Shown here: positions 33,793-49,064 of the stretch, in pieces | Layout: the number at the start of each line of letters is the position of its first letter | How positions within the stretch are numbered: position 1 is the first letter of the stretch | Assembly: GCF_008084905.1 (NCBI RefSeq) | Contig: NZ_VSFC01000030.1 | Span: 1,478-65,477, forward strand | Direction of reading: 5' to 3' | Source of the DNA: Xanthomarina maritima | GTDB lineage: Bacteria; Bacteroidota; Bacteroidia; Flavobacteriales; Flavobacteriaceae | DNA length: 64,000 nucleotides | The notes under the pieces: generated by a model | Database searches by the model: none | What the model was told of the DNA's origin: nothing | The model's input: the letters and a program-made list of their open reading frames with translations, nothing else | Made by a program: the position numbers and the translations under genes

Positions 33793-34155
33793 ATGAAATC
33801 TCATAAGGACTTGGATATCTATAATTTAGCTTTTGAATATGCTCTTGAAGTACATCAAATCACTTTAAGATTACCTAAATATGAATTATTTGAGCAAGGA
33901 AGTCAATTAAGACGCTCTTCAAAAAGTATAAAAGACAATATTGTTGAAGGATATGGTAGAAGGCGTTATAAGCAAGATTTTATCAAATTTTTAGTATATG
34001 CACATGCATCTTTATTAGAAAGTTTGTCACAATTAGAAATGATTCAACAAATATACCCTGAGCTAGAAATAAACGACTTATTAGAAAAATACAACATGTT
34101 AGGAGCTAAAATATTCAAATTTATTAAGTATGTTGAAAAAGAATGGAAAAGTTAA
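33793..34155 (+). CDS. Four-helix-bundle protein, S23/IVS-encoded family
   Basis: This 120-residue protein belongs to the small four-helix-bundle family first seen in intervening sequences of 23S rRNA genes and common as stand-alone genes in Bacteroidota. The start is MKSHKDLDIYNLAFEYALEVHQ; SSKSIKDNIVEGYGRR is the family signature near the centre. An upstream in-frame ATG at 33688 would translate the repeat array and is rejected. It does not belong to the glycan pathway by family, and it sits between two matching heptamer arrays, so it looks like an inserted cassette. Function in the cell is unknown. Confidence 0.9.
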   Translation: MKSHKDLDIYNLAFEYALEVHQITLRLPKYELFEQGSQLRRSSKSIKDNIVEGYGRRRYKQDFIKFLVYAHASLLESLSQLEMIQQIYPELEINDLLEKYNMLGAKIFKFIKYVEKEWKS

Positions 34156-34235
34156 CCAACAACCAACAACCAACAACCGACAACTGACAACAGACAACAG
34201 ACAACAGACAACCGACAACTGACAACCGACAACCG
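34152..34235. repeat. Heptamer tandem array, ACAACNN units, fills stop-to-start spacer
   Basis: Twelve uninterrupted in-phase 7-base units: first TTAACCA, then ACAACCA, ACAACCG, ACAACTG and ACAACAG forms. The first unit contains the TAA stop of the S23 gene (34153-34155) and the last unit ends on the G of the GTG start of the next glycosyltransferase (34235). The whole intercistronic region is therefore repeat, and a change of unit number would change the translation-initiation region of that gene. Confidence 0.93.
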
Positions 34236-35332
34236 TGAATAAAAAAATCCTCATAGTAACCTCCGAATTTCCTCCACAACCTGGAGGCATCGGCTATCAC
34301 GCGTTTCATGTGGCTGAACAGCTACAGATGCATGGCTATGGCGTAACTGTTTTAGCAGACCAACGCTCAAAATCGGGTGAGGAAGAAATGGATTTTGATA
34401 AATCACTGAAGTTCGGTGTCAAACGGGTGACTTGGAAGTCCATACGGATGTTCATGTATTTAAATCGCTTAATTTTACTTTTTAGGTTGATTAAATCGAA
34501 TGAGGTGGTTTTAGCTTCAGGAAAATTTTCCTTATGGATGGTGGCTTTTGTGAGTTTATTTTATAAGAAAAAATATCTAGCAGTCATTCATGGTTCTGAG
34601 GTAAATTTTAAAAAGCAACTTCTAAAAAAGAGTGTTGAAAGCGCCTTAAAACAATTTTCTACCATCATAGCTGTGTCGCAGTACACAGAAAGTTTAATAT
34701 CGCATCTAAATCTAAATACCATAGTGATTCCCAATGGCTATGATACTAAGAAATGGCGAACAGAGATTCAGGCGTATCAGAATCTTAAGGGATATCCCAA
34801 ACTTATGACCCTTGGAAATGTCACTACCAGAAAAGGCCAGTTGCAAGTCATCAAACACTTACCGAAACTATTAGAGTACTATCCGGAAATTCAGTATCAT
34901 TGTGTGGGATTACCAACAGAAGCAAAAGGGTTTTCTCAAGTAGCAGTTGATTTAGGAGTTGATAAACAGGTGCATTTCCACGGTAGGTTAGAGGATACCA
35001 AATTACAAGCCATGTTGATGGCTATGGATGTATTTGTGATGCTAAGTAAAGAAACAGAAACAGGCGATGTGGAAGGGTTTGGAATGGCACTCATGGAGGC
35101 AAATGCTCTGGGAATCCCAACCATAGGTTCTAAGGGTTGTGGTATTGAAGATGCCATTTTAGATGGGAAATCGGGATGTTTGGTGGCAGCTGAAAGCGTA
35201 TCAGAATTTCAGGAGGCATTGTATAACATATTAGAATTACCTGAAGTCTTTAAAGCTGAGGCAAAATTGTGGGCTGAAACCCATACTTGGGAGGAAATAA
35301 TCAAACAGTATATAAGACATATGGAGATATAA
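34235..35332 (+). CDS. Glycosyltransferase family 4
   Basis: This is a GT-B transferase of 365 residues. It uses a GTG start, giving MNKKILIVTSEFPPQPGGIGYHAFH, the classic GT4 opening with the PGGIG loop; there is no in-frame ATG that keeps this loop intact. The donor domain has LGNVTTRKGQLQVIKHL, HGRLEDTKLQAML, EGFGMALMEANALG with the E-x7-E pair and GCGIEDAI. The heptamer array runs into its start codon, so it has no conventional ribosome-binding region. It is 3 bases from the next GT4. Confidence 0.91.
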   Translation: MNKKILIVTSEFPPQPGGIGYHAFHVAEQLQMHGYGVTVLADQRSKSGEEEMDFDKSLKFGVKRVTWKSIRMFMYLNRLILLFRLIKSNEVVLASGKFSLWMVAFVSLFYKKKYLAVIHGSEVNFKKQLLKKSVESALKQFSTIIAVSQYTESLISHLNLNTIVIPNGYDTKKWRTEIQAYQNLKGYPKLMTLGNVTTRKGQLQVIKHLPKLLEYYPEIQYHCVGLPTEAKGFSQVAVDLGVDKQVHFHGRLEDTKLQAMLMAMDVFVMLSKETETGDVEGFGMALMEANALGIPTIGSKGCGIEDAILDGKSGCLVAAESVSEFQEALYNILELPEVFKAEAKLWAETHTWEEIIKQYIRHMEI

Positions 35333-35335
35333 AGA

Positions 35336-36475
35336 ATGAAATTAGCTATTATATCACATACAGAACACTATAAAGCGGCTGATGGAACTATTGTTGGCTG
35401 GGGGCCTACCATCACAGAAATCAATCACCTTCTGGAGATCTTTGATACCATTTATCATGTGGCCATGTTACATGAAACGGATGCGCCTCCAAGTGCTTTA
35501 CCTTATGTGTCCCATAGAATCGTTTTTGTGCCTTTACCAGCCTTAGGTGGTAATAGTTTGGGGGCCAAATGCCAATTACTTTGGAAAGCGCCTAAGGTAT
35601 TAAGCATCGTAAATAAAACATTAAAAAAAGTCGACTGGTTTCAGTTTCGTGCCCCTACAGGGATAGGGGTTTATGTGATTCCTTTTTTAACCCTTTGTGT
35701 CAAAACTCCTGGCTGGTTTAAGTATGCAGGAAATTGGAATCAAGAAACCCCTCCTTTAGGGTACCGATGGCAACGCTGGATGTTGAAACAGCAATCTAGG
35801 AAGGTAACTATCAATGGGAGTTGGAACCATCAGCCCAAGCACTGTATCACCTTTGAAAACCCCTGTTTAACAAATGACGAACTTGATGAAGGGTTAAAAC
35901 TTGGCAAAGAAAAATCCTTAGAGGGCCTTATTAATGTCTGCTATGTGGGACGTTTAGAAAGACCCAAAGGCGTCGAGCGTATCATTCAAGCCATGGCAGC
36001 GCTTACAGAAGTAGAAAAAAAACGTATTGGGGTAGTGCACTTAGTAGGGGATGGTCCAGAAAAAGCTTATTTTGTAGAGCTTAGTAAAACAGCTGGCGTG
36101 ACTTTTAAATTTCATGGCTTTTTACCAAGAGAGGAAGTCTTTGAAATTTATAAAAAAAGTCAGGTCTTTTTAATGCCCACCACGGCTTCGGAAGGCTTTC
36201 CAAAAGCCATTGCCGAAGCCATGAACTTTGGATGCATCCCAATAGTATCTGATGTATCAAGTATCAGTCAGTATATAAAAAATAATATACATGGACTAAT
36301 TCTTGATGAGGTAACTAGTAACAGACTCATAGAGAGAATAAGAACGGTCTTGAATTATACTGAAGAAGAACATATAAGGACAATCCATTCCCAAAAAGAA
36401 ATAGTGCGATTATTTACATTTGAATATTATAATTGGAGTATTACTTCACGAATCTTATCTTTAAAAAATAAATAA
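35336..36475 (+). CDS. Glycosyltransferase family 4
   Basis: This is a GT-B-like transferase of 379 residues with a short, less typical acceptor domain (KLAIISHTEHYKAADGTIVGWGPT). The donor domain is clear: CYVGRLERPKGVERIIQAM, LVGDGPEKAYF, FHGFLPREEVFEIYKKSQVFLMPTTASEGFPKAIAEAMNFG with the E-x7-E pair. It directly follows another GT4 and precedes the polymerase/ligase-like gene by 7 bases. The donor is unknown. Confidence 0.9.
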   Translation: MKLAIISHTEHYKAADGTIVGWGPTITEINHLLEIFDTIYHVAMLHETDAPPSALPYVSHRIVFVPLPALGGNSLGAKCQLLWKAPKVLSIVNKTLKKVDWFQFRAPTGIGVYVIPFLTLCVKTPGWFKYAGNWNQETPPLGYRWQRWMLKQQSRKVTINGSWNHQPKHCITFENPCLTNDELDEGLKLGKEKSLEGLINVCYVGRLERPKGVERIIQAMAALTEVEKKRIGVVHLVGDGPEKAYFVELSKTAGVTFKFHGFLPREEVFEIYKKSQVFLMPTTASEGFPKAIAEAMNFGCIPIVSDVSSISQYIKNNIHGLILDEVTSNRLIERIRTVLNYTEEEHIRTIHSQKEIVRLFTFEYYNWSITSRILSLKNK

Positions 36476-36482
36476 GAATTAA

Positions 36483-37838
36483 TTGAAAAATACATTTTCT
36501 TATATCTCTTTAGTAATTATTCATATCCTTATTGGTGCAATAATATTTATATTTGAACCTTTAGGTAGAATCTATTTTATATTAGCTGGTATTTATCTAA
36601 CTGCTGGAATATTTTTGGCTTCTTCTTCAGATAAAACTTATAAGGTATTATTAGCGTGTGCTTACTTTGTTGGGGCAGAAGTGTTTTTTAGAATGACTAA
36701 AACAGGGCTTTCTTATGAGGCTTCCAAGTATTTAGTAATTTTGTTTGTTGTTATAGGTATGTTTTATAAAGGGATTTCTGGAAAAGGGTACCCTTATTTT
36801 ATATTTTTAATTTTATTAGTTCCTGCCATTGTTGTGGCTTCTGTTACATTGACATATAATGCAAGTTTTAGGACCAATATTGCTTTTGTCTTAAGTGGTC
36901 CTGTTTGTTTAGGTATCGCATCATTATTTTGTTTTGATAGAAAAATAAAATTCGATAAACTATTAAGCATTTTATGGTATATGTTATATCCATTAATTAC
37001 AACAACAACATATTTGTTTTTGTATAATCCAAGTATTAAGGACACCTTATCAGGAACAGCGTCAAATGCTGCAACATCTGGAGGTTTTGGTCCCAATCAG
37101 GTGGCTACAACCTTAGGTTTAGGGATATTTTTAATTATTGTAAGGTTATTTTTAAAATCGCCTACAATGTTTCTAAAAATATTTAATATTATTATTCTAG
37201 GTGCTATGTCTTTTAGGGCAATTGTAACGTTTAGTCGAGGAGGCGTTTTTGCAGCAATAATTGTTGTTGCTGCTTTTTTATGGTCTTTATTTTTTAGAAC
37301 CTCATTCAAACAGAAAAATCAGATTATTTGGTCTTTTTTATTGTTACTAATGGCTTTAGTGATTACATGGACCATTAGTTCTAATCAAACAAGTGGCTTA
37401 ATTGATAATAGATATACAAACAAAGATTCAATGGGAAGAGTAAAAGGGGATATTTCAACTGGTAGGTTAGATTTGTTTGTAGAAGAAATTGAAGGGTTTT
37501 TAGAAAGCCCTTTTTTAGGTATTGGAGCCAGCAGAATAAAAAATATTCGAGTGGAAGAGACTGGTCTTAGATTGCCATCACATAATGAAATTGGAAGGCT
37601 TTTAGCTGAACACGGTATTCTAGGAATTATAGCAATTTTGATTTTGATATTTACACCATTAGCTTATTATGGGAAAAATAATAAAAACCTCTTTTTCTAT
37701 GCCTTTTTAGCCTTTTGGTTTGCCACCATCAACCACTCAGGGATGCGCATTGCTGCACCTTCTTTTATTTATGCTCTGGCATTATTAAATGTAACGTATG
37801 AAAAACGTCCTCTATATAGGAAACAAATTAAACAGTAA
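36483..37838 (+). CDS. O-antigen polymerase/ligase-like membrane protein (Wzy/WaaL type)
   Basis: This 451-residue inner-membrane protein has about twelve hydrophobic helices. The conserved Wzy_C/ligase area is seen in TFSRGGVFAAIIVVAAFLW, the large periplasmic loop after it, and the SHNEIGRLLAEHGILG block that carries the catalytic-type histidine. It starts with TTG (36483); no in-frame ATG is available nearby upstream. It may polymerise repeat units or ligate the glycan to lipid A core or another acceptor. Because an ABC exporter is present rather than a visible Wzx flippase, a ligase role is the more economical guess. Its 3' end overlaps the next GT4 by 41 bases. Confidence 0.85.
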   Translation: MKNTFSYISLVIIHILIGAIIFIFEPLGRIYFILAGIYLTAGIFLASSSDKTYKVLLACAYFVGAEVFFRMTKTGLSYEASKYLVILFVVIGMFYKGISGKGYPYFIFLILLVPAIVVASVTLTYNASFRTNIAFVLSGPVCLGIASLFCFDRKIKFDKLLSILWYMLYPLITTTTYLFLYNPSIKDTLSGTASNAATSGGFGPNQVATTLGLGIFLIIVRLFLKSPTMFLKIFNIIILGAMSFRAIVTFSRGGVFAAIIVVAAFLWSLFFRTSFKQKNQIIWSFLLLLMALVITWTISSNQTSGLIDNRYTNKDSMGRVKGDISTGRLDLFVEEIEGFLESPFLGIGASRIKNIRVEETGLRLPSHNEIGRLLAEHGILGIIAILILIFTPLAYYGKNNKNLFFYAFLAFWFATINHSGMRIAAPSFIYALALLNVTYEKRPLYRKQIKQ

Positions 37839-38808
37839 AAGAAGCAATGTGTCTTCTATTAGTGTCTTAGGCCCCATGTTGGAAGATGAAGGGTTTAAGT
37901 TAAGATATGCTTCTTCATATCCAAATAAAATAAAACGGATGTTAGATATGCTTTGGACTTGTTTCAAGTATAGAAAACAAACCGATGTGGTAATTATAGA
38001 TACCTACAGCACGCAAAACTTTTACTATGCCCTTTTAGTCAGTCAGTTTTGTCGCTTATTAGACCTAAAATATGTGACCAGTCTCAATGGAGGAAATTTA
38101 CCCATGCGTCTAAAAAAGAATCCAATCTTATGTCGTACTATTTTTAATCATGCCTATAAACTGGTGTCGCCTTCTACCTATTTAAAAGAAGCTTTTGAGT
38201 CTTATGGCTATCAAAATGTGTATTACATACCTAACAGTCTGGAGATGGAGCAATATGTGTTTCATTCAAAAGCCTTTCAAAAAGTAGAGTTGTTATGGGT
38301 GCGCTCTTTTTCAGCTATATATAATCCGTTATTAGCAGTTAAAGTATTAAAAAAGCTAAAAGATGATGGCCTGCAAGCCAGCTTGTGTATGATGGGTCCT
38401 GATGCTGATGGCTCTTTGGAGGCCGTCAAGCAATTAGCGAATGACTTGGATGTTTCTGTAAGATTTACAGGTAAACTTCCAAAGAAAGACTGGCTGGCCT
38501 TAGCGAAAGATTATAACATGTTTATAAACACCACCAATTTCGATAACATGCCTGTCTCTGTGATAGAGGCTATGGCATTAGGCTTACCTGTGGTATCTAC
38601 CAATGTAGGAGGTTTACCATATCTATTAAAACACGAAAAAGACGCCTTATTAGTACCCCCAGATAATGCAGAAGCCTTTGTAGTGGCTATTAAACAACTA
38701 CTAAATAACCCTTTAGCCACTAGAACCATGGCATTTAACGCCAGGCAGAAAGTAGAACAATTTGATTGGAATCTGGTCAAACACCAGTGGATAAAATTGC
38801 TTAGTTAA
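37798..38808 (+). CDS. Glycosyltransferase family 4
   Basis: This is a GT-B transferase of 336 residues that begins inside the last 41 bases of the preceding gene, in another frame. The opening KNVLYIGNKLNSKRSNVSSI and the linker TSLNGGNLPMRLKKNPILCR are GT4-like. The donor domain has WVRSFSAIYNPLLAVKVL, FTGKLPKKDWLALAKDY, and a variant of the usual motif (NFDNMPVSVIEAMALG) with Asp at the first acidic place. It is the last gene of the main locus; a hairpin follows at 38819. Confidence 0.9.
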   Translation: MKNVLYIGNKLNSKRSNVSSISVLGPMLEDEGFKLRYASSYPNKIKRMLDMLWTCFKYRKQTDVVIIDTYSTQNFYYALLVSQFCRLLDLKYVTSLNGGNLPMRLKKNPILCRTIFNHAYKLVSPSTYLKEAFESYGYQNVYYIPNSLEMEQYVFHSKAFQKVELLWVRSFSAIYNPLLAVKVLKKLKDDGLQASLCMMGPDADGSLEAVKQLANDLDVSVRFTGKLPKKDWLALAKDYNMFINTTNFDNMPVSVIEAMALGLPVVSTNVGGLPYLLKHEKDALLVPPDNAEAFVVAIKQLLNNPLATRTMAFNARQKVEQFDWNLVKHQWIKLLS

Positions 38809-38818
38809 AGCCCCTAAA

Positions 38819-38839
38819 TCCCCAAAGGGGACTTTTTCT
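38819..38839 (+). terminator. Probable intrinsic terminator after the polysaccharide locus
   Basis: A GC-rich stem TCCCC/GGGGA (38819-38823 with 38827-38831, loop AAA) is followed by CTTTTTCT. It starts 10 bases after the last glycosyltransferase stop. The sequence around it (CCCCTAAATCCCCAAAGGGG) also looks like a dispersed palindrome, so it may serve both as repeat and as terminator. Confidence 0.55.
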
Positions 38840-38842
38840 GTG

Positions 38843-38890
38843 GAAATTGAAATCTAAATTGAAATAGAAATTGAGCTTGAAATAGAGGTG
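38843..38890. repeat. Hexamer tandem array, GAAATN units
   Basis: Eight in-phase 6-base units (GAAATT, GAAATC, TAAATT, GAAATA, GAAATT, GAGCTT, GAAATA, GAGGTG) follow the terminator-like hairpin. It is the only array of period 6 found; the others have period 7. Confidence 0.75.
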
Positions 38891-38961
38891 TTTAGTTTTC
38901 TTTTTTCAGTTGTCGGTTCATGTTGTTTGAATTTAATTTTTTGGGTTTAATATAATTTTTA

Positions 38962-39059
38962 ACTCACAACTAAAAACTAAAAACTCACAACCAATTACCG
39001 ACAACTCACAACTCACAACCGACAACCGACAACCGACAACAGACAACCGACAACAGTAA
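38962..39059. repeat. Heptamer tandem array, ACTCACA/ACCGACA units
   Basis: Fourteen in-phase 7-base units, among them ACTCACA (four), ACTAAAA (two), ACCGACA (five) and ACAGACA. In the ACAACNN frame these are the same unit family as the arrays around the S23 gene at 33.7-34.2 kb. The array fills most of the 339-base gap between the last glycosyltransferase and the small reversed gene at 39148. Nothing else is seen in that gap apart from the hairpin and the hexamers. Confidence 0.9.
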
Positions 39060-39147
39060 ACAACCCATAACTATAAGGTCGATAGGGAGGGTAACCTATT
39101 AAAACTTCAAAAAGTATCCCGCCACTCCCAGCAAATAAATCTATAAA

Positions 39148-39396
39148 TCAAATGGAATCCATAATAGTAGTAGAAGACCTTGGAGGTTTTATCGAAAGCT
39201 TATTTTTCTTATCTAAAATGGCATTTACTTTATCTTCATGAACATTGTAATATTCACAAAAAGCTTTCATACTTATTTCCCGTTCTTTGGGTAAATCATA
39301 TTTCTTTATAATACGATTGAATATGTTACAGGCAGTCTTATAGCATACACCCTTAAGTGCAACAATATCATTAACTGTTATAAACAACCTGTCCAT
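39148..39396 (-). CDS. Small hypothetical protein, possible helix-turn-helix
   Basis: This is not assigned to a named family. The 82-residue protein begins MDRLFITVNDIVALKGVCYKTACNIF, which reads as a helix-turn-helix like those of excisionases and phage-type regulators (a VNDIVALKGVC helix, turn, then KTACNIFNRIIKKYD), and ends with a Ser/Thr-rich tail. Similar small proteins occur in accessory regions of Bacteroidota. It is convergent with the polysaccharide locus and lies next to repeat arrays. DNA binding is a guess from the helix pattern. Confidence 0.55.
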   Translation of the reverse strand: MDRLFITVNDIVALKGVCYKTACNIFNRIIKKYDLPKEREISMKAFCEYYNVHEDKVNAILDKKNKLSIKPPRSSTTIMDSI

Positions 39397-39885
39397 TTTT
39401 AATTTTTTTAATCACATCATGCCAATTCGCAAAACTAACTCCAATCATCAGTGTAACCTAACTTTTAATTAAAGACCTATTAACCATGAGTTAACAATTT
39501 TTAGGTTAATAAACTTTGTATTTTGTTGAAAACGGATATTTTAAAACCGATACAAAACTATTTCTTTTATATACTTTAAAATAGGACATAAAAAAATCAG
39601 TTATACAAACATAAATCAAACAGCTAATAAACAGTGCTTTGTGGTTTTGTTTGCTTTCTATTTCTCCCTTTTACATTTGTTTAAGTGTCATTTGTATCTT
39701 GAATATGTTTCATGGACGAAACCTAAATAATTTGTTGATAGAAAGTTAAGACATGAAATATTCCATCTTCAGTTAAAAATGTAACTTTTTGTAAGTCAAT
39801 TTACAAATCGTCAGTTCGAGTACTTTTTGTGAATTATAGTGAACAAAAAATGTATCGAGAACCGATTTCAACTTCCCAATTCAAA

Positions 39886-39927
39886 AATCATCAATCATCA
39901 ATCATCAATCTCCAATCTCCAATCCCT
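39886..39927. repeat. Heptamer tandem array, AATCATC/AATCTCC units
   Basis: Six in-phase 7-base units: AATCATC three times, AATCTCC twice, AATCCCT once. The array passes directly into the 11-base-period array that follows. Confidence 0.88.
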
Positions 39928-39980
39928 TTCCCATACCTTTCCCATGGCTTTCCTATGGTTTTCCTATGCCTTTCCTATAA
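39924..39980. repeat. Tandem array with 11-base period (CTTTCCYATRN)
   Basis: Five consecutive units related to CCTTTCCCATA, with one unit of 12 bases, follow the heptamer array without a gap. The units drift from CCTTTCCCAT to TTTTCCTAT and CTTTCCTAT. It is one turn of B-DNA per unit, which could give a curved tract, but this is not tested. Confidence 0.75.
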
Positions 39981-40273
39981 AACCATAAAGTCAATGACCC
40001 AAGTTTTTCTTAGTCACTTAGGAACAGATAGGAACATATTGGAACTATTTTGGAGTTATTCTGAACGCTTAGTGAGCAATTGGCAAGAATATGTATTGTA
40101 TTGGTAATCAATGGTATTGTATGGACTTATCGAGGTTTTTATTAAAAAGCTGTCCTATGTTTGGGGTATTAGAAGAAGCAATTCATGCGTTCATTTAATA
40201 AATCAGATAGGTCGACATATTAGATTTTTAAAAACAAAGAATTGCCAACTAATAAAAAATGTTTTTTTAATCT

Positions 40274-40293
40274 GATGAACATATCAGTTCATC
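40274..40293. promoter_or_regulatory. Perfect 7-base inverted repeat upstream of the 40310 gene
   Basis: GATGAAC (40274-40280) and GTTCATC (40287-40293) are separated by six bases, and the repeat ends 16 bases before the ATG at 40310. It could be an operator or a small 5'-leader hairpin that affects translation. No T-run follows, so a terminator is unlikely. Confidence 0.45.
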
Positions 40294-40309
40294 CAAAATT
40301 TTTAATATT

Positions 40310-41059
40310 ATGGCAAAAGTAAAGTCATTATTTAATGTAGAAGGGACACTCGGAGAAGTGACATTCTACAAAGATCAAGACGGATATAAAATCCGTACCA
40401 AAAATAGTGTGTCTAAAGAACGTATTATGAGCGACCCTGCATATGCACGAACTCGTGAAAATCTTTCAGAGTTTGCAAATGCGGCTACTAGTGGTAAAAT
40501 GCTACGCAGAAGTATTGTTAGTCTTATGAACGACGCAAAAGACAATCGTGTAACTTCTAGATTAACTCAAGTAATGAGTAAAGTTAAAAATGAAGATCTA
40601 ACTTCTGCTCGTGGACAACGTAATGTGGCTACAGGTATTTTAACAGCTTTAGGAAAAGGGTGGTTAATAGGGTTTAACTTTAATAAAAGAGCCATATTAG
40701 ACTCCGTGCTTCAGGCATCTTACACACTTAACCCTGCAACAGGTGAAGTAGTTATTGCCGATTTAATTCCTATTCAGCAGTTAGAAATCCCTGAAGGAGC
40801 GACTCACGTAGATTTCAGTTCAGGTTTTTTAAATCTGGATTTTGATTCAGGTGTTAAAGATTTGCAATTAAGTAACTTAGTAAATCTGCTTATTGATGCA
40901 TCTGTTTCTCCAGTAACTCTAACACCACTAGGTGTTCCTACGGGATCTGGACAAAATTTCTACTTCTTAAAAGTAGCTTTTTATCAGGAGATTAATGGAG
41001 TTCAATACCCACTTAATAATGGGGCATTTAATGCTTTACAAATTATAGATGTAGTATAA
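40310..41059 (+). CDS. Conserved hypothetical protein of Bacteroidota type
   Basis: I do not assign a function. The 249-residue protein has a very recognisable N-terminus for a family common in Flavobacteria: KSLFNVEGTLGEVTFYKDQDGYKIRTKNSVSKERI, followed by AYARTRENLSEFANAA. The middle is helical and basic (LRRSIVSLMNDAKDNRVTSRLTQVM), and the C-terminal 100 residues look beta-rich with acidic turns. There is no signal peptide or membrane segment. It stands alone, with an inverted repeat before it and a strong terminator after it, so it is a single-gene unit. A phage- or secretion-derived structural role is conceivable but unproved. Confidence 0.75.
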   Translation: MAKVKSLFNVEGTLGEVTFYKDQDGYKIRTKNSVSKERIMSDPAYARTRENLSEFANAATSGKMLRRSIVSLMNDAKDNRVTSRLTQVMSKVKNEDLTSARGQRNVATGILTALGKGWLIGFNFNKRAILDSVLQASYTLNPATGEVVIADLIPIQQLEIPEGATHVDFSSGFLNLDFDSGVKDLQLSNLVNLLIDASVSPVTLTPLGVPTGSGQNFYFLKVAFYQEINGVQYPLNNGAFNALQIIDVV

Positions 41060-41080
41060 TTTGTTAATGTTAGCATCTTT

Positions 41081-41112
41081 AAAAGACTGTTCGCAAGGAC
41101 AGTCTTTTTTTA
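41081..41112 (+). terminator. Intrinsic terminator after the 40310 gene
   Basis: A perfect 10-base stem AAAAGACTGT/ACAGTCTTTT (41081-41090 with 41099-41108) with loop TCGCAAGG is followed by further T residues. It lies 21 bases after the stop codon. Confidence 0.9.
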
Positions 41113-41304
41113 TTCTCTTTGATATAAATAAACAACAACATACGGTCAATGTAAGCTTCACCAAAAATGTGTCATTATAAGGAGTGACACTAGGTAAAGC
41201 CAATATTGAGCTTGCCGAAGTGAAGCCTCGAAGACATCAAAATAAATAGCTATATTATGATTAGAAAACCATAGGTATCATATATTTTACTCACTACCCA
41301 TAAT

Positions 41305-41489
41305 CTCACGTCACTTCGAGTGAAACCGAGGTACGAGGTTTTGTATAGAGAAGCACCCCACACCTCACAACCTCACGTCACTTCAAGTAAAACCGAGGTA
41401 CGAGGTTTTGTATTGAGAAGCAACCCACACCCCACACCCTCACGTCACTTCGAGTGAAACCGAGGTATGAGGTTTTGTATCGAGAAGCA
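41305..41489. repeat. Three tandem copies of a composite 67-base repeat
   Basis: Copies begin at 41305, 41372 and 41439, a spacing of exactly 67 bases both times. Each has a 46-base core from GTCACTTC to GAGAAGC that is nearly identical (few changes such as GAGTGAA/AAGTAAA), and a 21-base linker made of three 7-base units (for example CCCCACA, CCTCACA, ACCTCAC). The core resembles dispersed intergenic sequences common in Flavobacteria. Three copies with coherent linkers rule out a CRISPR array, since the linkers are simple repeats and not unique spacers. Confidence 0.88.
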
Positions 41490-41538
41490 ACCCACACCCT
41501 ACACTCCACAACACATTACACATAACATAAAATAAACT
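41490..41538. repeat. Degenerate heptamer array, NCCCACA to ACATAAA units
   Basis: Seven in-phase 7-base units (ACCCACA, CCCTACA, CTCCACA, ACACATT, ACACATA, ACATAAA, ATAAACT) follow the third 67-base copy and run to the -33 position of the predicted promoter of the phosphoglycosyltransferase gene. Units drift gradually from C-rich to A-rich. Confidence 0.7.
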
Positions 41539-41567
41539 TGTATAAGTTTTCAAACTTAGTATCTTTA
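41538..41567 (+). promoter_or_regulatory. Predicted Bacteroidota-type promoter of the phosphoglycosyltransferase gene
   Basis: TTG at 41538-41540 and TATCTTTA at 41560-41567 are 19 bases apart, close to the Bacteroidota consensus (TTTG at -33, TAnnTTTG at -7), with one mismatch at the last base. The start codon lies 24 bases further on. It is the only convincing signal in this gap. Confidence 0.45.
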
Positions 41568-41590
41568 CCCTTACTTAATGAAAGATTTAA

Positions 41591-42982
41591 ATGTCCAAAA
41601 ATGACATACATTTTAATATTTCTGAGAGAAAGGTTCTATTAAGAATAGTAGATATTCTCTCTATTTTGGGAATGTTATATTTAATAAGTTCCTTATTTGC
41701 TTTCGATTATTTTTCAGTAACTAAAGAGAACTGGACCTGGGTTGTGGTCCTATTATTATATATCAGTGTCTTTGGTACCATCTTTGAACTTTACGATTTA
41801 CAAAAGGCTAGTAAACTGGATAAAGTAATTAGTAACATATTTTTAACAGCTTCTTTTACTGTTTTATTTTATCTGTTAACCCCTTATTTTACGCCATTTC
41901 TTCCTACCAATAGATTGCAGATTGTCTATTTTTATTTGGCTATTATATTGGCACTTCTTATTTGGAGGTTCATTTATGTGAATTTTATAACCTCACCTAG
42001 GTTCTATAAAAAAGTGCTTATTGTAGGTGAAATTTCAAATATTGAATCCATTATCGATGCTTTTAAAAACTCAGATCCAAATTATAAAATTGTAGGGTTT
42101 ATTAACTGCGAATTATCTCAAAAAGATAGCATCAAGTTTAAAGGAATAGCTGAATATGCTTGTACAGAATTGCATCAAGTGATTGAGAAAGAAAAGATTT
42201 CTGAAATTATTGTAGCTAGTTATAATGCCGAAACCATTACCACTGAAATTTATAACGATTTAATTTTACTTTTAGAACGTGGGTTTCCTATTAAAGAATA
42301 TACTCAGGTGATTGAGGATATGACCTATAGGGTACCAGTACAATTTGTTGGAAAGGATTTTTATAAATACTTCCCCTTTAGCCGAAGCAATCAGAATAAA
42401 TTTTATTTATTTTACCATCGGCTTTTTGATACCCTATTTTCATTTGCAGGCGTAATAGTTGGACTCTGTATCTTACCTTTTATTTTATTAGGAAACCTCA
42501 TAGCAAATCGTGGCCCTTTATTCTATTTTCAAGACAGAGTGGGTAAAAATGGCAAAGTGTTTTCCATAATAAAATTTAGAACCATGATTATTGATGCCGA
42601 AAAGCAAGGTGCTGTTTGGGCAGAAAAAGATGATATTCGGGTCACAACTTTTGGGAGATTCTTAAGACGTTCTCGATTAGACGAATTCCCTCAGTTTTTA
42701 AATATATTAAAAGGAGACATGAGTTTAATTGGCCCAAGACCAGAACGACCTTACTTTGTAAAAGAATTATCTCAAGTTATTCCATTTTATGAAACCAGAC
42801 ACATTATTAAACCTGGTCTAACGGGTTGGGCACAAGTTAAAGTGCGTTATGGTTCTACCGTAGAAGATAGCCTTCTGAAATTGCAATACGACTTGTATTA
42901 TATTAAACACCGAAGCTTCTTTTTAGATGCCAATGTGATTGTAAAAACTCTAAGCACCATGGTATTTTATAGAGGACAGTAG
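41591..42982 (+). CDS. Undecaprenyl-phosphate sugar phosphotransferase (WcaJ/WbaP-like)
   Basis: This enzyme starts a glycan by moving sugar-1-phosphate to undecaprenyl phosphate. The 463-residue protein has four N-terminal membrane helices, a soluble nucleotide-fold region (YKKVLIVGEISNIESIIDAF, about 140-250), a fifth membrane segment (about 280-300) and the C-terminal catalytic domain with KFRTMIIDAEKQGAVWAEKDD, TTFGRFLRRSRLDEFPQFLNILKGDMSLIGPRPERP and PGLTGWAQV. It stands apart from the main locus, 2.8 kb downstream, with its own promoter, so it may serve this locus or a different glycan. It is followed by the longest heptamer array. Confidence 0.93.
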   Translation: MSKNDIHFNISERKVLLRIVDILSILGMLYLISSLFAFDYFSVTKENWTWVVVLLLYISVFGTIFELYDLQKASKLDKVISNIFLTASFTVLFYLLTPYFTPFLPTNRLQIVYFYLAIILALLIWRFIYVNFITSPRFYKKVLIVGEISNIESIIDAFKNSDPNYKIVGFINCELSQKDSIKFKGIAEYACTELHQVIEKEKISEIIVASYNAETITTEIYNDLILLLERGFPIKEYTQVIEDMTYRVPVQFVGKDFYKYFPFSRSNQNKFYLFYHRLFDTLFSFAGVIVGLCILPFILLGNLIANRGPLFYFQDRVGKNGKVFSIIKFRTMIIDAEKQGAVWAEKDDIRVTTFGRFLRRSRLDEFPQFLNILKGDMSLIGPRPERPYFVKELSQVIPFYETRHIIKPGLTGWAQVKVRYGSTVEDSLLKLQYDLYYIKHRSFFLDANVIVKTLSTMVFYRGQ

Positions 42983-42989
42983 AGTTTTT

Positions 42990-43101
42990 AGGTAATAGGG
43001 ATTAGGAAATAGGCAATAGGGATTAGGCAAAAGGCATAAGGAATTAGGAATTAGAAAAAGAAAATAGACAAAAGAAAATAGACAAAAGATAAAAGATAAC
43101 T
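42990..43101. repeat. Heptamer tandem array, AGGNANT then GANAAAA units
   Basis: Sixteen consecutive in-phase 7-base units: AGGTAAT, AGGGATT, AGGAAAT, AGGCAAT, AGGGATT, AGGCAAA, AGGCATA, AGGAATT (twice), AGAAAAA, then GAAAATA, GACAAAA, GAAAATA, GACAAAA, GATAAAA, GATAACT. The unit sequence changes half-way but the phase does not. It begins 7 bases after the stop of the phosphoglycosyltransferase gene. Confidence 0.92.
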
Positions 43102-43102
43102 T

Positions 43103-43138
43103 GTCATTGCGAGGAAGGAACGACCGAAGCAATCTCAT
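43103..43138. repeat. Half-copy of the palindromic dispersed element
   Basis: It starts GTCATTGCGAGGAAGGAACG and ends GCAATCTCAT. This corresponds to the reverse complement of about 33651-33692, the right half of the element at 33575-33693, with a short internal deletion. It sits between two heptamer arrays. Confidence 0.75.
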
Positions 43139-43200
43139 GATTAGAAACGAAGATGAATTTGAAGTCGAAGATGAATTTGATAATCTTAAAGGATTAATTT

Positions 43201-43270
43201 ATCTAACATCTAACATCTAACATCTAACATCTAACATCAATTCACGAATCACGAATCACGAATCACGATT
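43201..43270. repeat. Heptamer tandem arrays, ATCTAAC then CACGAAT units
   Basis: Ten in-phase 7-base units: ATCTAAC five times, ATCAATT once, CACGAAT three times, CACGATT once. The phase is unbroken across the change of motif, and the array reaches the stop codon of the reversed DUF4105 gene (43270-43272). Between 43139 and 43200 there is also a short 18-base direct repeat (GAAGATGAATTTGA twice). Confidence 0.92.
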
Positions 43271-44445
43271 CACAACGCACCATCATAATACCAAACCAAA
43301 TACACATACCGTACAGCAAGTGCTATAAAAAGAGGAAGTAATGCAATAGCAAACACCTGAATGCCAACTAGCCAATGAAAGCAAAGTAAACACAGCATAA
43401 TAATTAAGAATTTTAAATACTTAATAAACCATTGCTTTGGAGATTTATTTATGACTTGTTTAATAACGAACAGGTTTAAAGCAAAAGCCCAAAGCAGGTT
43501 GTAATTTTGAGCAGTCGCTTCATGGTCTGTTGCAAACCAAAGTAATAAGATTAATATACCAATACCTCCAGTTATCGAGAATAACAGTATGTCCAGAAGC
43601 TTGGTTCTTCGTTGGTTTTTATAATCGAAATAGGTGATGCCAATAATTAAAATTCCTAAAACACTAAAAATGGTAAAAGGACTAAATAAAATCTGTTTAG
43701 AATATTTAATCTCTCTTTGTTTAAATATCACTTGGTCGTTTATTACTAATGAATCTCCATTATTTAAGTTAGCTTCATTAAAAAAAGCATGAATGTATTT
43801 AGGTAAAAACATATACTCTTCTGGAGTGGCTGGTTGATCTATAACAGATCCCAAGGCAATATCTATTCCTACAGAACCCCAGGAATTAGCATCTAACTGG
43901 TTCTGGATAAGGGTTCGAAAGGTTTGGGGTTTAAAATCTTCAGGGTTATTAAATACTATTGGACTGTCTACATTTTTAACTAACACCTCTTTAATTTTAG
44001 TGGCACAATTATCATAGAAAAAATCGTATAAATAAGCTCTGTTTTCAGGTTTGTAATTGGATTCTAGATAGTCGAACATCTGCTGTTTCTCTGTTTGACT
44101 GAGATGTAAAGTCTGCTCTTTAATAGTTCTGTTTTGATAGACATAACTATTATAAAAGTCTTCGAAATAATTTCTCCCAATAAGATAGTTTAGTTTTCCT
44201 TGGGCAAATTTGGTGTAAAAGTTTGGGGTATTAAAATCGTAGATTCCATAATTATAAACCAAATCCACGCCATATCTTTTATCTTTAATTCTATAGGCAC
44301 TATGTCCAAAAGCATCGTTTAAAGAAGTTCCAGGCGCAATGGTTAAAACGCTTATTTCAGCAGTGTCCGACAGTCTTTTGGATTGAGAATAAGAGTTAAG
44401 AACAAATAAAAGACAAGTAATACGTATCAAGAAAGCATGTCTCAT
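43270..44445 (-). CDS. DUF4105 (Lnb N-terminal-like) secreted/membrane protein
   Basis: The 391-residue protein has a signal peptide ending near SYSQS, then a periplasmic DUF4105 domain: LTIAPGTSLNDAFGHSAYRIKD, YNYGIYDF and DFFYDNCATKIKE, where the Cys and His residues are the conserved ones. Four or five hydrophobic helices follow from about residue 250 to the end. In other species the domain is linked to the lipoprotein-modifying or LPS-related enzyme Lnb; its role in Bacteroidota is not known. It ends 8 bases before the PorV-like gene start-side neighbour, so both are probably co-transcribed on the minus strand. Confidence 0.88.
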   Translation of the reverse strand: MRHAFLIRITCLLFVLNSYSQSKRLSDTAEISVLTIAPGTSLNDAFGHSAYRIKDKRYGVDLVYNYGIYDFNTPNFYTKFAQGKLNYLIGRNYFEDFYNSYVYQNRTIKEQTLHLSQTEKQQMFDYLESNYKPENRAYLYDFFYDNCATKIKEVLVKNVDSPIVFNNPEDFKPQTFRTLIQNQLDANSWGSVGIDIALGSVIDQPATPEEYMFLPKYIHAFFNEANLNNGDSLVINDQVIFKQREIKYSKQILFSPFTIFSVLGILIIGITYFDYKNQRRTKLLDILLFSITGGIGILILLLWFATDHEATAQNYNLLWAFALNLFVIKQVINKSPKQWFIKYLKFLIIMLCLLCFHWLVGIQVFAIALLPLFIALAVRYVYLVWYYDGAL

Positions 44446-44453
44446 AAGCCTTT

Positions 44454-45566
44454 TTATCTAAAGATACTGAAATCTATTTTTAGTGAAAACACATTGGAAT
44501 ACAAAGCCACACTTTGATCGCCAATATCTGTAAAGGCATAATCTACTTGAATGCCTTTATATTTAAAACCAACACCAATACTTGGTTGGAAACTAACACG
44601 TTCTTCATTATCTAATTGTAATTCATTTTGAAAATTACCAACTCCAGTTCTCAAATAAATCATATCAATATATCCAAACTCTAATCCAAGAGCTGGACTG
44701 ATGCTGGCAAAAGAAGTAGAAATAATGTCGTTATTTTCTTCAAAACGAATGTTTAAATCTACTTCTGCCAAAAGAGAATAATCGTATCTAATAATAAATT
44801 TTTTAGCCACTCCAAACTGTAACTTAGGAATGGTTATTTCGGTGGTTTCTGGGAGCTCTTGATTCTGCCCTTCTACAGCATCCTGGATGGTAGCAAATTC
44901 GTCTTCATCTATAGCCCAAGCATTAAAGGTTGTTGTGATATCTCTAGCCATAAGACCAAATTTCCATTCGTCTCTGGTTTCAAACTGAATGGCTGCATCG
45001 AGTCCAAACCCCCAGGAAGAGGCAAAATCTCCAATAATTCGACGAATAACTTTGGCATTAATTCCATAATTAAAACCATCTAAAGGTAATTTTCTGGCAT
45101 AAGAAAAAGTCACTCCATAATCGGCAGTAGAGAACAAACTAATTCTATCGTAGTTAATATGTCCTTCGTCGTCTATAAGTTGGGTGGTATTTAAGATATC
45201 ATCTACTGCAAATCGAATGACAGAGATCCCTAAGGAGCTTCTATCGTCAATGGGCATAGCAAATCCAATATAATCGTAATTGGCAATGCTCTCAAAATAA
45301 CTGGAATGCATCAAAGCCATTTGTTTGTCTTCTAGATGAACTAGGCCAGCAGGATTCCAATACCCTGAATTAACATCAGCAGAAAAAGCAGTAACAGCAT
45401 TACTCATACCTAAGGCTGCAGCATCCACACCAATATTCATAAACTCGTTAGAATATTTTCTAACAGCTTGACCGAATACCGTTACTGTAATAAGGAATAG
45501 TAAGGTTGTGAATGTCTTTTTCAAAAAACAATTAATTTTTGCAAATATGCCATATTTTTTCAACAT
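44454..45566 (-). CDS. PorV/PorQ-family outer-membrane barrel (PorV2-like)
   Basis: The protein is an outer-membrane barrel related to PorV/PorQ, the type IX secretion shuttle proteins. SNEFMNIGVDAAALGMSNAVTAFSADVNSGYWNPAGL is the family opening, and the end SLKIDFSIFR fits an outer-membrane closing strand. The ATG at 45566 gives 370 residues, but its first 14 residues are unlike a signal peptide; a TTG start at about 45524 would give the normal leader LKKTFTTLLFLITVTVFGQ. It is divergent from pssA and upstream of the DUF4105 gene. A role in secretion is inferred from family only. Confidence 0.82.
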   Translation of the reverse strand: MLKKYGIFAKINCFLKKTFTTLLFLITVTVFGQAVRKYSNEFMNIGVDAAALGMSNAVTAFSADVNSGYWNPAGLVHLEDKQMALMHSSYFESIANYDYIGFAMPIDDRSSLGISVIRFAVDDILNTTQLIDDEGHINYDRISLFSTADYGVTFSYARKLPLDGFNYGINAKVIRRIIGDFASSWGFGLDAAIQFETRDEWKFGLMARDITTTFNAWAIDEDEFATIQDAVEGQNQELPETTEITIPKLQFGVAKKFIIRYDYSLLAEVDLNIRFEENNDIISTSFASISPALGLEFGYIDMIYLRTGVGNFQNELQLDNEERVSFQPSIGVGFKYKGIQVDYAFTDIGDQSVALYSNVFSLKIDFSIFR

Positions 45567-45653
45567 ATTAAACTTGAAAATGTAGTAGTTATTGTATAAT
45601 TGTTGTATTAGACGAAAATTCTTTGTTATTTTTACATGAAATAAGTCCTTTAA

Positions 45654-46406
45654 ATGAAAAAACAGATCCCTAATTTTATAACCCTTTTAAATTTGTTTTC
45701 TGGTTGTATAGCAGTGTTACTAGCTGTTAATAATAATTTTGTAGCAGCAGCTGGTTTTGTTGCTTTAGGAATATTTTTCGATTTCTTTGATGGTTTATTA
45801 GCCAGAAAACTTCAAGTTCAAAGTGAATTAGGCATCCAATTAGATTCGCTAGCAGATATGGTTACCAGTGGCTTAGTACCTGGAATTGTCATGTTTAAAT
45901 TACTGGCTATATCTAGTAATGCGCCAGATTTGGTAGCTTTTTCTAAGGAATGGAATTCTGCCTTACACTGGCAAGGATTTCAATTTGCACCTATAGCCTT
46001 ATTAGGGTTTCTAATTACCATGGCATCAGCTTATAGATTGGCTAAATTTAATATAGATGAAGAGCAACAATCTTATTTTAAAGGCTTACCAACACCAGCA
46101 AATACCTTATTGATTATTTCGCTGCCCCTAATAATGGAATTTCAGAATAACGATTTAATAAATTCTATCATCATTAACCCTTGGTTTTTAATAATTTTAA
46201 CCTTTGTAAGTTCTTATTTACTAGTGTCTTCAATTAAGTTATTTGCCTTAAAATTTAAAGACTGGAGTTTTAAAAATAATGCCATTAGATATATCTTTAT
46301 CATGCTATGCTTGGTGCTTTTAATTGTGTTGCAGTTTGCAGCTATCCCTTTAATTATTTTAGTTTATATCGGATTATCTTTAGTAAATCAGAAAGGAATT
46401 AGTTAG
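45654..46406 (+). CDS. pssA: CDP-diacylglycerol-serine O-phosphatidyltransferase
   Basis: This membrane enzyme makes phosphatidylserine from CDP-diacylglycerol and serine, the route to phosphatidylethanolamine. The full CDP-alcohol phosphotransferase signature is present: D46-G47-x2-A50-R51-x8-G60-x3-D64-x3-D68. Around eight hydrophobic segments follow. Its 250 residues match the shorter Bacteroidota-type PssA. The start MKKQIPNFITLLNLFSGC is typical. It is divergent from the PorV-like gene, and the 61-base spacer to the next gene is a heptamer array. Confidence 0.93.
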   Translation: MKKQIPNFITLLNLFSGCIAVLLAVNNNFVAAAGFVALGIFFDFFDGLLARKLQVQSELGIQLDSLADMVTSGLVPGIVMFKLLAISSNAPDLVAFSKEWNSALHWQGFQFAPIALLGFLITMASAYRLAKFNIDEEQQSYFKGLPTPANTLLIISLPLIMEFQNNDLINSIIINPWFLIILTFVSSYLLVSSIKLFALKFKDWSFKNNAIRYIFIMLCLVLLIVLQFAAIPLIILVYIGLSLVNQKGIS

Positions 46407-46468
46407 TATTCAGTATTCAGTAATTCAATTGGAATTTTGTATTTGTAATTTAGAATTTTTATAATTTA
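46406..46468. repeat. Degenerate heptamer array filling the pssA-DUF808 spacer
   Basis: Nine in-phase 7-base units run from the last base of the pssA stop codon to the start of the next gene: GTATTCA twice, GTAATTC, AATTGGA, ATTTTGT, ATTTGTA, ATTTAGA, ATTTTTA, TAATTTA. The last unit touches the ATG at 46468. The units are looser than in other arrays, but the period is clear in the first three and in the ATTT-led group. Confidence 0.7.
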
Positions 46469-47340
46469 TGGCCTCCGGATTTTTTGCCTTATTAGATGAT
46501 ATTGCTACCCTTATGGATGATGTAGCAGCCATGAGTAAAATTACTACAAAGAAAACAGCAGGAATTTTAGGCGATGATTTAGCTGTAAATGCTGAAAAAG
46601 CATCAGGATTTGTATCTTCCAGAGAGTTGCCAGTACTTTGGGCCATTACTAAAGGGTCTTTTTTAAATAAACTGATAATTTTACCCATTGCTTTTTTATT
46701 AAGTGCTTTTTTACCTTGGGCAGTCACTTTTATTCTGGTTTTAGGAGGTGTTTATCTGGCTTTTGAAGGAGCCGAAAAAGTCTATGAATTTTTTGTACCA
46801 CATAATGAAGAAGCACATATTTTGGAAGTTGAAACACCATCCAAAACAGATGTCTTAGAATTGGAAAAGAAGAAAATTAAATCGGCCATTGTTACCGATT
46901 TTATCTTATCAGTTGAAATAGTTATTATAGCCTTGGGAACAGTTGTTGGAGAACCACTTTTATTTCAAGTATTAGTTGTGTCTGTTGTGGCTATAATTGC
47001 AACCATAGGTGTTTATGGGATTGTAGCTTTAATAGTTAGAATGGATGATTTTGGTTTGCGATTAGTGCAATTAGGTAACGGAAAAGGGTTTTTAAAGTTT
47101 TTTGGAAACCTCTTAGTTCAAGCTTTGCCAAAAGTTATTAAATTGCTATCAATTATTGGAACCATTGCTTTATTACTGGTGGCAGGTGGTATTTTTTCAC
47201 ATAATTTGGAGTTTCTACATCATGTCTTAGAATCTTGGCCAAGCCTATTAAGAGAGTTTATAGTGGGCTTGATAGTTGGGTTTGTGGCTTTGTTGCTGTT
47301 TAAACTTGTAAAAGCACTTATAGGGAAGTTTAAAGATTGA
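46468..47340 (+). CDS. yedI: DUF808 family inner-membrane protein (YedI-like)
   Basis: The 290-residue protein matches the DUF808/YedI family in length and order: MASGFFALLDDIATLMDDVAAMSKITTKKTAGILGDDLAVNA, then GSFLNKLIILPIAFLLSAFLPW and VYLAFEGAEKVYEFF, with about six membrane helices. The function is unknown in any species. It has the same orientation as pssA, with only a repeat array between them. The stop is followed by another heptamer array. Confidence 0.9.
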   Translation: MASGFFALLDDIATLMDDVAAMSKITTKKTAGILGDDLAVNAEKASGFVSSRELPVLWAITKGSFLNKLIILPIAFLLSAFLPWAVTFILVLGGVYLAFEGAEKVYEFFVPHNEEAHILEVETPSKTDVLELEKKKIKSAIVTDFILSVEIVIIALGTVVGEPLLFQVLVVSVVAIIATIGVYGIVALIVRMDDFGLRLVQLGNGKGFLKFFGNLLVQALPKVIKLLSIIGTIALLLVAGGIFSHNLEFLHHVLESWPSLLREFIVGLIVGFVALLLFKLVKALIGKFKD

Positions 47341-47360
47341 AGATTGTTAATTGGATTTAT

Positions 47361-47451
47361 GAGCATAGAGCATAGAGCATAGAGCATAGAGAGTAGAGGA
47401 TAGGATATTGAACTTTAAATCTTGAATCTAGAATTTTGAACCCTGAATTGT
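47361..47451. repeat. Heptamer tandem array, GAGCATA then GAANNNT units
   Basis: Thirteen in-phase 7-base units: GAGCATA four times, GAGAGTA, GAGGATA, GGATATT, GAACTTT, AAATCTT, GAATCTA, GAATTTT, GAACCCT, GAATTGT. The array stops exactly where the duplicated lptB segment begins (47451-47455). It begins 20 bases after the DUF808 stop codon. Confidence 0.9.
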
Positions 47452-47454
47452 TAC

Positions 47455-47538
47455 TCCCTAATCTTTTTCTTACGTAACTCAAAGTTCTGACCTAAATAGA
47501 CTTTTCTAACCATGTCGTCGCTAGCTAATTCTTCAGGT
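47455..47538 (-). pseudogene. Duplicated 3' end of lptB
   Basis: These 84 bases are identical to 48328-48411, the last 28 codons of lptB, in the same orientation. The identity continues as TTA (the stop codon, one mismatch away) on one side and as a weak match of about 18 bases (shared TTTAAGA-TG) on the other. It cannot encode a product alone. Between the two copies lies the GIY-YIG gene and its palindromes, so the copies look like the ends of an insertion or duplication event. Confidence 0.92.
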
Positions 47539-47700
47539 ACCTGGCTTTTAAGATTGTTTTTAAAAGCAAGGGTTAGTATGGTCAATAATAAAATGCCATT
47601 TATGTATAAAGAGGACGATTTTTTTATTTATTTTTTTCAGGTGAAAAAAGTAAACTATAGCCTAAGTAAATGGGCTTATAATTAGATATGATATCCTTTA

Positions 47701-47727
47701 CTGTCATTCCTGCGAATGCAGGAATCC
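47701..47727. repeat. REP-like palindrome upstream of the GIY-YIG gene
   Basis: ATTCCTGC (47706-47713) and GCAGGAAT (47718-47725) are perfect inverted arms with loop GAAT, set within CTGTCATTCCTGCG. The same palindrome family recurs four times on the other side of the gene (48103-48242). It starts 51 bases before the GIY-YIG start codon. Confidence 0.88.
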
Positions 47728-47751
47728 AATAATTTAACGATTTACATCTTC

Positions 47752-48063
47752 ATGTACAAAGCCATACATCAATATTATCTTTATGTTTTAACCAATAAAA
47801 CCAACGGCACTTTATACATTGGTGTTACTAACGATCTTGAACGAAGAATATTCGAACACAAAAACAAATTAGTTGCAGGTTTTACTAAAAAATACGGGTT
47901 AAATAAACTTATATATTTTGAAACGTTTCAATATGTTAATGATGCCATAAAAAGAGAAAAGAATATGAAGAAATGGAAACGCCAATGGAAAATAGATTTA
48001 ATTGAAGAAGAAAATCCTTGTTGGAACGATTTATCAAAGGATTGGATTTATTTGATTGATTAG
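47752..48063 (+). CDS. Single-domain GIY-YIG endonuclease (URI-type)
   Basis: The 103-residue protein is one GIY-YIG/URI nuclease domain: YLYVLTNKTNGTLYIGVTND with the YVL and YIG halves, then LERRIFEHKN (catalytic Arg) and the closing AIKREKNMKKWKRQWKIDLI. It starts at the ATG at 47752; an earlier in-frame start at 47716 would translate the palindrome. No DNA-recognition domain is attached. Flanking palindromes on both sides, and the nearby duplicated lptB end, suggest it is part of a mobile unit, or that the palindromes are its target. Its cellular role is unknown; similar small proteins are widespread. Confidence 0.9.
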   Translation: MYKAIHQYYLYVLTNKTNGTLYIGVTNDLERRIFEHKNKLVAGFTKKYGLNKLIYFETFQYVNDAIKREKNMKKWKRQWKIDLIEEENPCWNDLSKDWIYLID

Positions 48064-48102
48064 GGAGTTTATATAACATTTGAAAGCTTTACATTTTAAG
48101 TA

Positions 48103-48242
48103 GATTCCTGCTTTCGCAGGAATGACAAGTTTCTGCTTTTGCAGGAATGACAGAGGATACAGGATTACGAAATAGGGTAAAGCTAAGTGGATTCCAGCTT
48201 TCGCAGGAATGACAAGTTTCTGCTTTTGCAGGAATGACAGAG
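48103..48242. repeat. Four REP-like palindrome copies in two direct repeats
   Basis: Units with the arms ATTCCTGC/GCAGGAAT (or the decayed TTCTGCTTTTGCAGGAA) occur at about 48103, 48127, 48190 and 48217. The pair 48103-48154 is repeated at 48190-48242 with very few differences, a spacing of 87 bases. With the copy at 47701 they bracket the GIY-YIG gene. Orientation of the flanking GATTCC/GACAAG words is the same in all copies. Confidence 0.85.
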
Positions 48243-48323
48243 TCAGAAATTGTACGAAGACCTAAAGCTTCTAACGGACAAGCCGTTGGAATTTGGAATT
48301 CAGTTTTTTTGGAATTTGAAGAT

Positions 48324-49064
48324 TTATTCCCTAATCTTTTTCTTACGTAACTCAAAGTTCTGACCTAAATAGACTTTTCTAACCATGTCGTCGCTAGCTA
48401 ATTCTTCAGGTTCACCAGCTTTAAGAATGCTACCTTCAAACATTAAATAAGTTCTGTCTGTAATGGCTAAGGTTTCTTGTACGTTGTGATCTGTAATAAG
48501 AATACCAATGTTCTTTTTGGTAAGCTGTGCTACAATACGTTGAATATCTTCTACGGCTACTGGATCGACTCCAGCAAAAGGTTCATCTAATAAAATGAAG
48601 CTTGGATCTGTAGCTAATGCTCTGGCAATTTCTGTACGTCTTCTTTCGCCACCAGATAATAAATCGCCTCTACTTTTTCTAATATGACCTAAACCAAACT
48701 CTTCAATTAAAGACTCCATTTTATGGTGTTGCTCTTTCTTACTTAATTTGGTAAGTTGTAACACACTTAAAATATTATCTTCTATACTTAACTTTCTAAA
48801 TACAGAGGCCTCTTGAGCTAAATAACCTATCCCATTTTGAGCTCGTTTATACATGGGATATTTGGTGATATTGGTTTTGTCTAAATGAATGCTCCCACCA
48901 TTGGGTTTAATTAAACCTACAATCATATAAAACGAAGTCGTTTTTCCAGCACCATTTGGACCTAAAAGACCAACAATCTCTCCTTGATTCACTTCAAGTG
49001 AGACATCTTTAACCACTTTTCGTCCGTTATAGGACTTCATTAAATTGTCGGCTTTTAATTTCAT
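48324..49064 (-). CDS. lptB: LPS export ABC transporter ATPase
   Basis: This is the cytoplasmic ATPase of the Lpt bridge that carries LPS to the outer membrane. The 246 residues show [16 protein letters not shown] (Walker A), [13 protein letters not shown] (Q-loop of the LptB kind), [15 protein letters not shown] (signature), [13 protein letters not shown] (Walker B) and ITDHNVQET (switch His). It is the last gene of the kpsF-tatC-CMD-lptB run. Its last 28 codons are duplicated at 47455-47538. The intact copy keeps the usual C-terminus, so the insertion beside it did not break the gene. Confidence 0.95.

Follow-up and report, generated by a model that had tools for sequence, protein, structure and literature searches.

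Tandem arrays upstream of a bacterial gene can be read either as a device that serves that gene or as repeat DNA that happens to lie there. A stretch of DNA from the flavobacterium Xanthomarina maritima raises this question, together with a second one, namely whether the two kinds of repeat from which its array is built, a 46-nt core and 7-nt units (heptamers), are parts of one structure. The window, the whole stretch of 64,000 nt that was analysed, contains the array directly in front of a phosphoglycosyltransferase (PGT) gene, and the features concerned are the following.

39810–39862, + strand: G-type member of the palindrome family described below, followed by AATCATC heptamers at 39878–39924
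41110–41510, + strand: approximate insert missing at the syntenic site of a congener (G001)
41289–41309, + strand: A/C-rich, period-7-like flank of 21 nt before copy 1
41310–41355, + strand: core copy 1, with TATAGAG in the 3' arm as one broken pair
41356–41376, + strand: linker 1, three degenerate heptamers
41377–41422, + strand: core copy 2, with the paired change TTCAAG/TATTGAG
41423–41443, + strand: linker 2, three degenerate heptamers
41444–41489, + strand: core copy 3, with the TATCGAG arm intact
41490–41537, + strand: decaying period-7 tail up to the promoter
41538–41567, + strand: PGT promoter (TTG, 19 nt, TATCTTTA), conserved in 8 species
41591–42982, + strand: PGT gene (PF02397)

The array and its promoter

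The core, GTCACTTCGAGTGAAACCGAGGTACGAGGTTTTGTATAGAGAAGCA with variants, occurs three times head-to-tail and in one type, and the copies agree pairwise at 42–44 of 46 positions. Tandem Repeats Finder (TRF) reports a 67-mer in 3.1 copies with a score of 337, the top score in the window, and the chance expectation for a 20-nt core probe at no more than 3 mismatches is 0. Copy 2 carries a paired change, TTCGAG to TTCAAG together with TATCGAG to TATTGAG. At the linkers and the adjoining A/C-rich sequence, lag-7 identity is 0.558, whereas dinucleotide shuffles give 0.395 (p = 0.0008; 0.01 once the choice among lags 3–12 is allowed for). Judged as a heptameric simple sequence repeat, the array has a significant period of 7 and is no clean tandem array by the strict detector; neither TRF nor that detector calls a heptamer array at 41289–41540. 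A preliminary description of this DNA had placed the three copies exactly 67 bases apart, which the starts at 41310, 41377 and 41444 bear out. It had also given each linker three heptamers and let the third copy run into heptamers reaching the PGT promoter. The 21-nt linker length, the significant period and a tail extending to about 41537 agree with this; the units themselves, however, are degenerate, with a one-base register slip from the second to the third heptamer, and the tail decays without forming a strict array.

The tail adjoins the TTG of the promoter, which we take from general knowledge of Bacteroidota promoters to be the -33 box, with TATCTTTA as the -7 element. This promoter is conserved in all eight species of the genus that were compared, and the PGT gene, whose neighbours encode glycosyltransferases and an O-antigen ligase/polymerase-type protein (a polysaccharide cluster), is 80–87% identical across seven congeners. 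Four of these seven (G003, G004, G005 and G006) carry core-free, strict period-7 arrays directly upstream of the promoter, differing in sequence and A/C-rich on the coding strand. G001 retains a short heptamer remnant at its promoter; it shares the upstream gene and has none of the approximately 380 bp that include the array. No heptamers occur at the promoter in G002 and G007.

This comparison bears on a regulatory reading, in which PGT transcription is set by cores and heptamers that bind a protein or form a structure. In its favour, the array stops right at the -33 box, and A/C-rich heptamers recur at the same promoter in several congeners. The unit sequence is nonetheless unconserved between species, and cores lie in many unrelated gaps and even within a coding gene. 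G002 and G007 keep an intact promoter with no array at all, so that a role in PGT regulation, though possible, lacks support, and we consider this reading very unlikely. A terminator reading of the array was rejected, the sole terminator-like site being a hairpin at 41081–41108, outside the array.

Further repeats surround the site. Another short repeat, TGAGCTTG(C/T)CGAAG.., lies about 75–150 nt before both core-plus-heptamer loci in this genome (window ~41195–41235; L004 ~1180–1245). PGT and the next gene converge on a gap (42983–43273) in which the PGT stop is followed by heptamers rich in G/T or G/A, and the stop of the opposite gene is preceded by A/C-rich ones; G004 repeats this arrangement with different units, which suggests that heptamers follow a strand rule with respect to gene ends.

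A palindrome family of Flavobacteriia

Rfam holds no match near the gathering score for the core element. Single window copies fold about 1–1.5 sd better than shuffles, and the case for pairing therefore rests on covariation across a family to which the core belongs. Its consensus is Y-GTCA-S-TTCGAGTG-(6–45 nt, mostly a self-complementary hairpin)-TATCGAGAA-S, with elements of 30–67 nt. Among 199 sampled Flavobacteriaceae genomes 80 carry the palindrome, in up to 85 copies each, and a reversed control pattern yields a single match in the whole sample. A sample of the phylum has it in 17 of 296 genomes, nearly all from the same order, and a contig scan matched at least 117 stretches, nearly all from Flavobacteriia, with Polaribacter, Winogradskyella, Lutibacter, Kordia, Maribacter, Leeuwenhoekiella, Chryseobacterium and others among the matches listed.

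The first covarying pair is the outer S–S pair, followed by TT/AA. Specifically, the outer pair is C-G in 184, G-C in 89, A-T in 4 and T-A in 1 of 294 elements, so that 278 are Watson-Crick against a shuffled maximum of 177. The pairs inside the TCGA arms hardly vary and give no evidence on pairing either way. Of 252 distinct elements, 91% have an interior that folds better than shuffles. GTCA is preceded by T in 146 and by C in 125 of 286 cases. Neighbours within 150 bp have their tags outside in 54 cases, inside in 38 and in tandem in 30; 86 of the 92 inverted pairs combine one C-type with one G-type element, and where the tags face outward the median gap is 19.5 nt. By its sequence anatomy, which resembles that of REPs and BIMEs, the core is a member of a REP-like palindrome family predicted to form hairpins.

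The nearest described family, the CGTC-tagged REPs (Di Nocera et al. 2013, PMC3733652), consists of short palindromes that bear a C/TGTC tag on one side; their hosts include Bacteroidetes such as Gramella forsetii. They carry a CGTC, TGTC or CCTC tag, an 8–9 bp stem starting with complementary AT and a 4–5 nt loop, often form dimers with tags predominantly outside and negligibly in tandem, and have no dedicated transposase (PMC3733652). The palindrome shares the tag (T or C before GTCA) and the lack of an associated transposase. It differs in its outer stem, S-TTC/GAA-S with an internal loop in place of the AT-starting stem, in an interior of 6–45 nt with its own variable hairpin in place of the short loop, and in having two covarying types that pair, as well as head-to-tail tandem copies. 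As neither the stem nor the loop rule holds, it was not filed as a CGTC-tagged REP. BIMEs are mosaics of REPs whose orientation alternates (PMC2817692). Like them, the palindrome forms inverted pairs, here of C-type with G-type, that are amplified as tandem dimers in some genomes; unlike them, it has no GTAG tag and no RAYT gene nearby, and the copies in the 67-nt array run head-to-tail and belong to a single type.

The tagged end, the hairpin and the inverted heterodimers would also fit a REP moved by a Y1 (RAYT/IS200-like) transposase that uses heptamers as its target. GTAG REPs with RAYTs, however, have a GTAG tag, where the palindrome has YGTCA, and copies flanking the Y1 transposase gene, where no convincing palindrome copy lies within about 1.5–2 kb of 50 Y1_Tnp loci in Flavobacteriaceae. 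The X. maritima genome has no Y1_Tnp gene, nor do genomes with 85, 62 and 47 copies; palindrome presence is not significantly related to Y1_Tnp (34/72 against 46/127, p = 0.14), and most copies lie outside heptamers. RAYT mobilisation was rejected for want of a linked Y1_Tnp gene, and we regard the transposase reading as extremely improbable.

Other members of the family show further arrangements. Tandem arrays of C/G heterodimers occur in Polaribacter (L086, period 161/168 nt), Olleya (L123, ~155 nt) and Winogradskyella (L135, ~172 nt); the spacings in L086 are all multiples of 7, yet heptamers are not visible there. A CusA-like RND pump gene (L213:7283–11155, corresponding to G000:C8:172283–176155) contains an in-frame inverted palindrome pair in one loop (C8:174697–174789), which resembles in kind the gene-borne palindromic elements of Rickettsia. 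A second loop holds in-frame heptamers (VKSEKLKVNSEKLEVNG), and congeners differ or have no sequence at both places. Other common dispersed palindromes (GTCATTGCGAGG.. and GTCATTCCTGC..) share gaps in the window at 33657–33692, 43103–43138 and 47702–48242, one of them adjoining heptamers.

Association of cores and heptamers

The exact subfamily of the core, AAACC..GGTTT, has just four copies in this genome, three in the array and a fourth at contig position C17:1329, about 150 bp ahead of the window start; a looser pattern with shared ends and a different middle finds about eight more members of the wider family. In G001 five cores lie between the counterparts of the window genes at 47.3 and 48.3 kb, and a core doublet occupies a place where X. 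maritima (G000) has just a short gap. One syntenic cluster contains all 12 subfamily copies of the two genomes, within approximately 42 kb and 30 kb, in gaps that differ between the species.

Period-7 flanks accompany all five independent subfamily loci (two in this genome, three in G001, a sister species; each p < 0.001). Other palindrome-family loci in the genus have them in 1 of 15 cases at p < 0.001 and in 2 of 15 at p < 0.05, giving Fisher p values of 0.0004 and 0.0014 for the two levels. In the three regions concerned, 27%, 14% and 2% of random noncoding windows have period 7, and local heptamer density cannot explain five of five, since even a uniform 27% gives a probability of 0.0014. 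Across Flavobacteriia, flanks of period 7 (p < 0.01) were found beside 25 of 125 core clusters, compared with 19 of 348 control windows; lags 6 and 8 each reach 4 of 125. The period-7 enrichment is approximately fourfold, and 80% of cores have no heptamers. Length-matched gaps as controls put the odds ratio at 3 to 7; its p value varied from 0.003 to 0.06 with the random draw. The per-locus mean lag-7 excess, near versus far, is borderline (p = 0.07). The positive result depends on the softer flank test and not on the strict heptamer detector, which, with local density kept, showed no significant link between CGTC-like repeats as a whole and heptamers across the two genomes (4 of 26 clusters, p = 0.36 and 0.13). 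Heptamer arrays in the genome sample mostly have no core.

The preliminary description had treated a dispersed core and the heptamers as modules of one structure, proposing to look for period 7 beside the genomic core copies and naming cores without adjacent heptamers as the observation that would speak against it. The proposed comparison came out in its favour for the exact subfamily, which is itself hardly dispersed, whereas in the wider family most cores stand without heptamers, and most heptamers without cores. Obligatory coupling was rejected on two observations, the core-free heptamers at the PGT promoter and the heptamer-free family cores, so the two are not obligatory modules. Cores and heptamers are two independent repeat types that associate more often than chance.

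A stricter alternative would have the AAACC..GGTTT core always travel with its adjoining A/C-rich heptamers as a composite unit, spreading by recombination or gene conversion among the intergenic sites of the cluster. The five of five loci and the confinement of the 12 copies to one syntenic cluster, in gaps that differ by species, are what it would predict. Heptamer sequence is different at every subfamily locus, however, other family members occur without heptamers and heptamers without cores, and we think this alternative rather unlikely.

Within the stretches of the genome that were sampled, noncoding heptamer arrays are about 10 times denser in window 33000–48500 than elsewhere, and 8 of the 13 period-7 arrays in 376 kb sit there.

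The heptamers have described counterparts as well. TAACTGA repeats are intergenic units of 7 nt; in Gramella and Aequorivita they form long arrays in gaps that also contain other heptamers (MacGregor 2015, PMC4679880); the gaps of close relatives are shorter and free of repeats, and a role in rearrangement has been suggested in Gramella (PMC4679880). The window shares 7-nt intergenic units with these, but its units are many different A/C-rich heptamers upstream of a promoter, some of the tracts hold palindromic cores, and no TAACTGA unit lies near the start codon. Like the heptameric simple sequence repeats of Nostoc and Xanthomonas (PMC4692102), those studied here have period 7, are intergenic and change rapidly in length and sequence among close relatives; unlike them, they are varied and not G-rich on a fixed unit. 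Joint occurrence of heptamers and palindromes was not found in the literature searched, nor was a match to the core string or arm sequence; subscription papers lay largely outside that search.

Proposed origin of the array

The available data are compatible with a model, which we consider likely, in which a REP-like core ended up inside a heptamer tract prone to slippage and the two were duplicated in tandem, as mainly self-propagating repeat DNA. The heptamers are a separate class of fast-changing period-7 minisatellites that turn up repeatedly between genes in these genomes, among other places at the PGT promoter of congeners. A heptamer tract upstream of this promoter would have come first and the core second, either inserted or brought in by recombination between this tract and another one in the polysaccharide cluster. 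The core and a 21-nt heptamer flank may then have been duplicated twice, through slippage or unequal recombination. Any effect on PGT transcription would be at most incidental.

The five-core array of G001 provides the analogy. Its spacings of 168, 161, 133 and 147 nt are all multiples of 7 and its linkers vary in heptamer number, a pattern that tandem duplication with gain and loss of whole heptamers would leave. By analogy, we infer that two duplications of a core lying among heptamers produced the 67-nt array of the window; with degenerate linkers and a unit length, 67, that 7 does not divide, slippage cannot be seen directly there. The array is probably repeat DNA duplicating itself and not a dedicated device.

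A bolder proposal, which we hold to be unlikely, would make heptamer minisatellites docking or recombination tracts for flavobacterial palindromes, with composites whose movement inside polysaccharide clusters and from one to another would promote reshuffling of these clusters.

Implications

The core family and the heptamers are variants of known repeat kinds. The palindrome is defined by a covariation signature and a two-type pairing rule, is present in about 40% of the sampled Flavobacteriaceae genomes and, as measured here, meets 7-nt minisatellites about four times as often as control DNA does. Since a surface-polysaccharide cluster holds both repeat types at high density, they lend themselves as markers of rearrangement in it and may also be its substrates. 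If the array is indeed passive repeat DNA, such arrays should not be taken for regulatory devices without a test.
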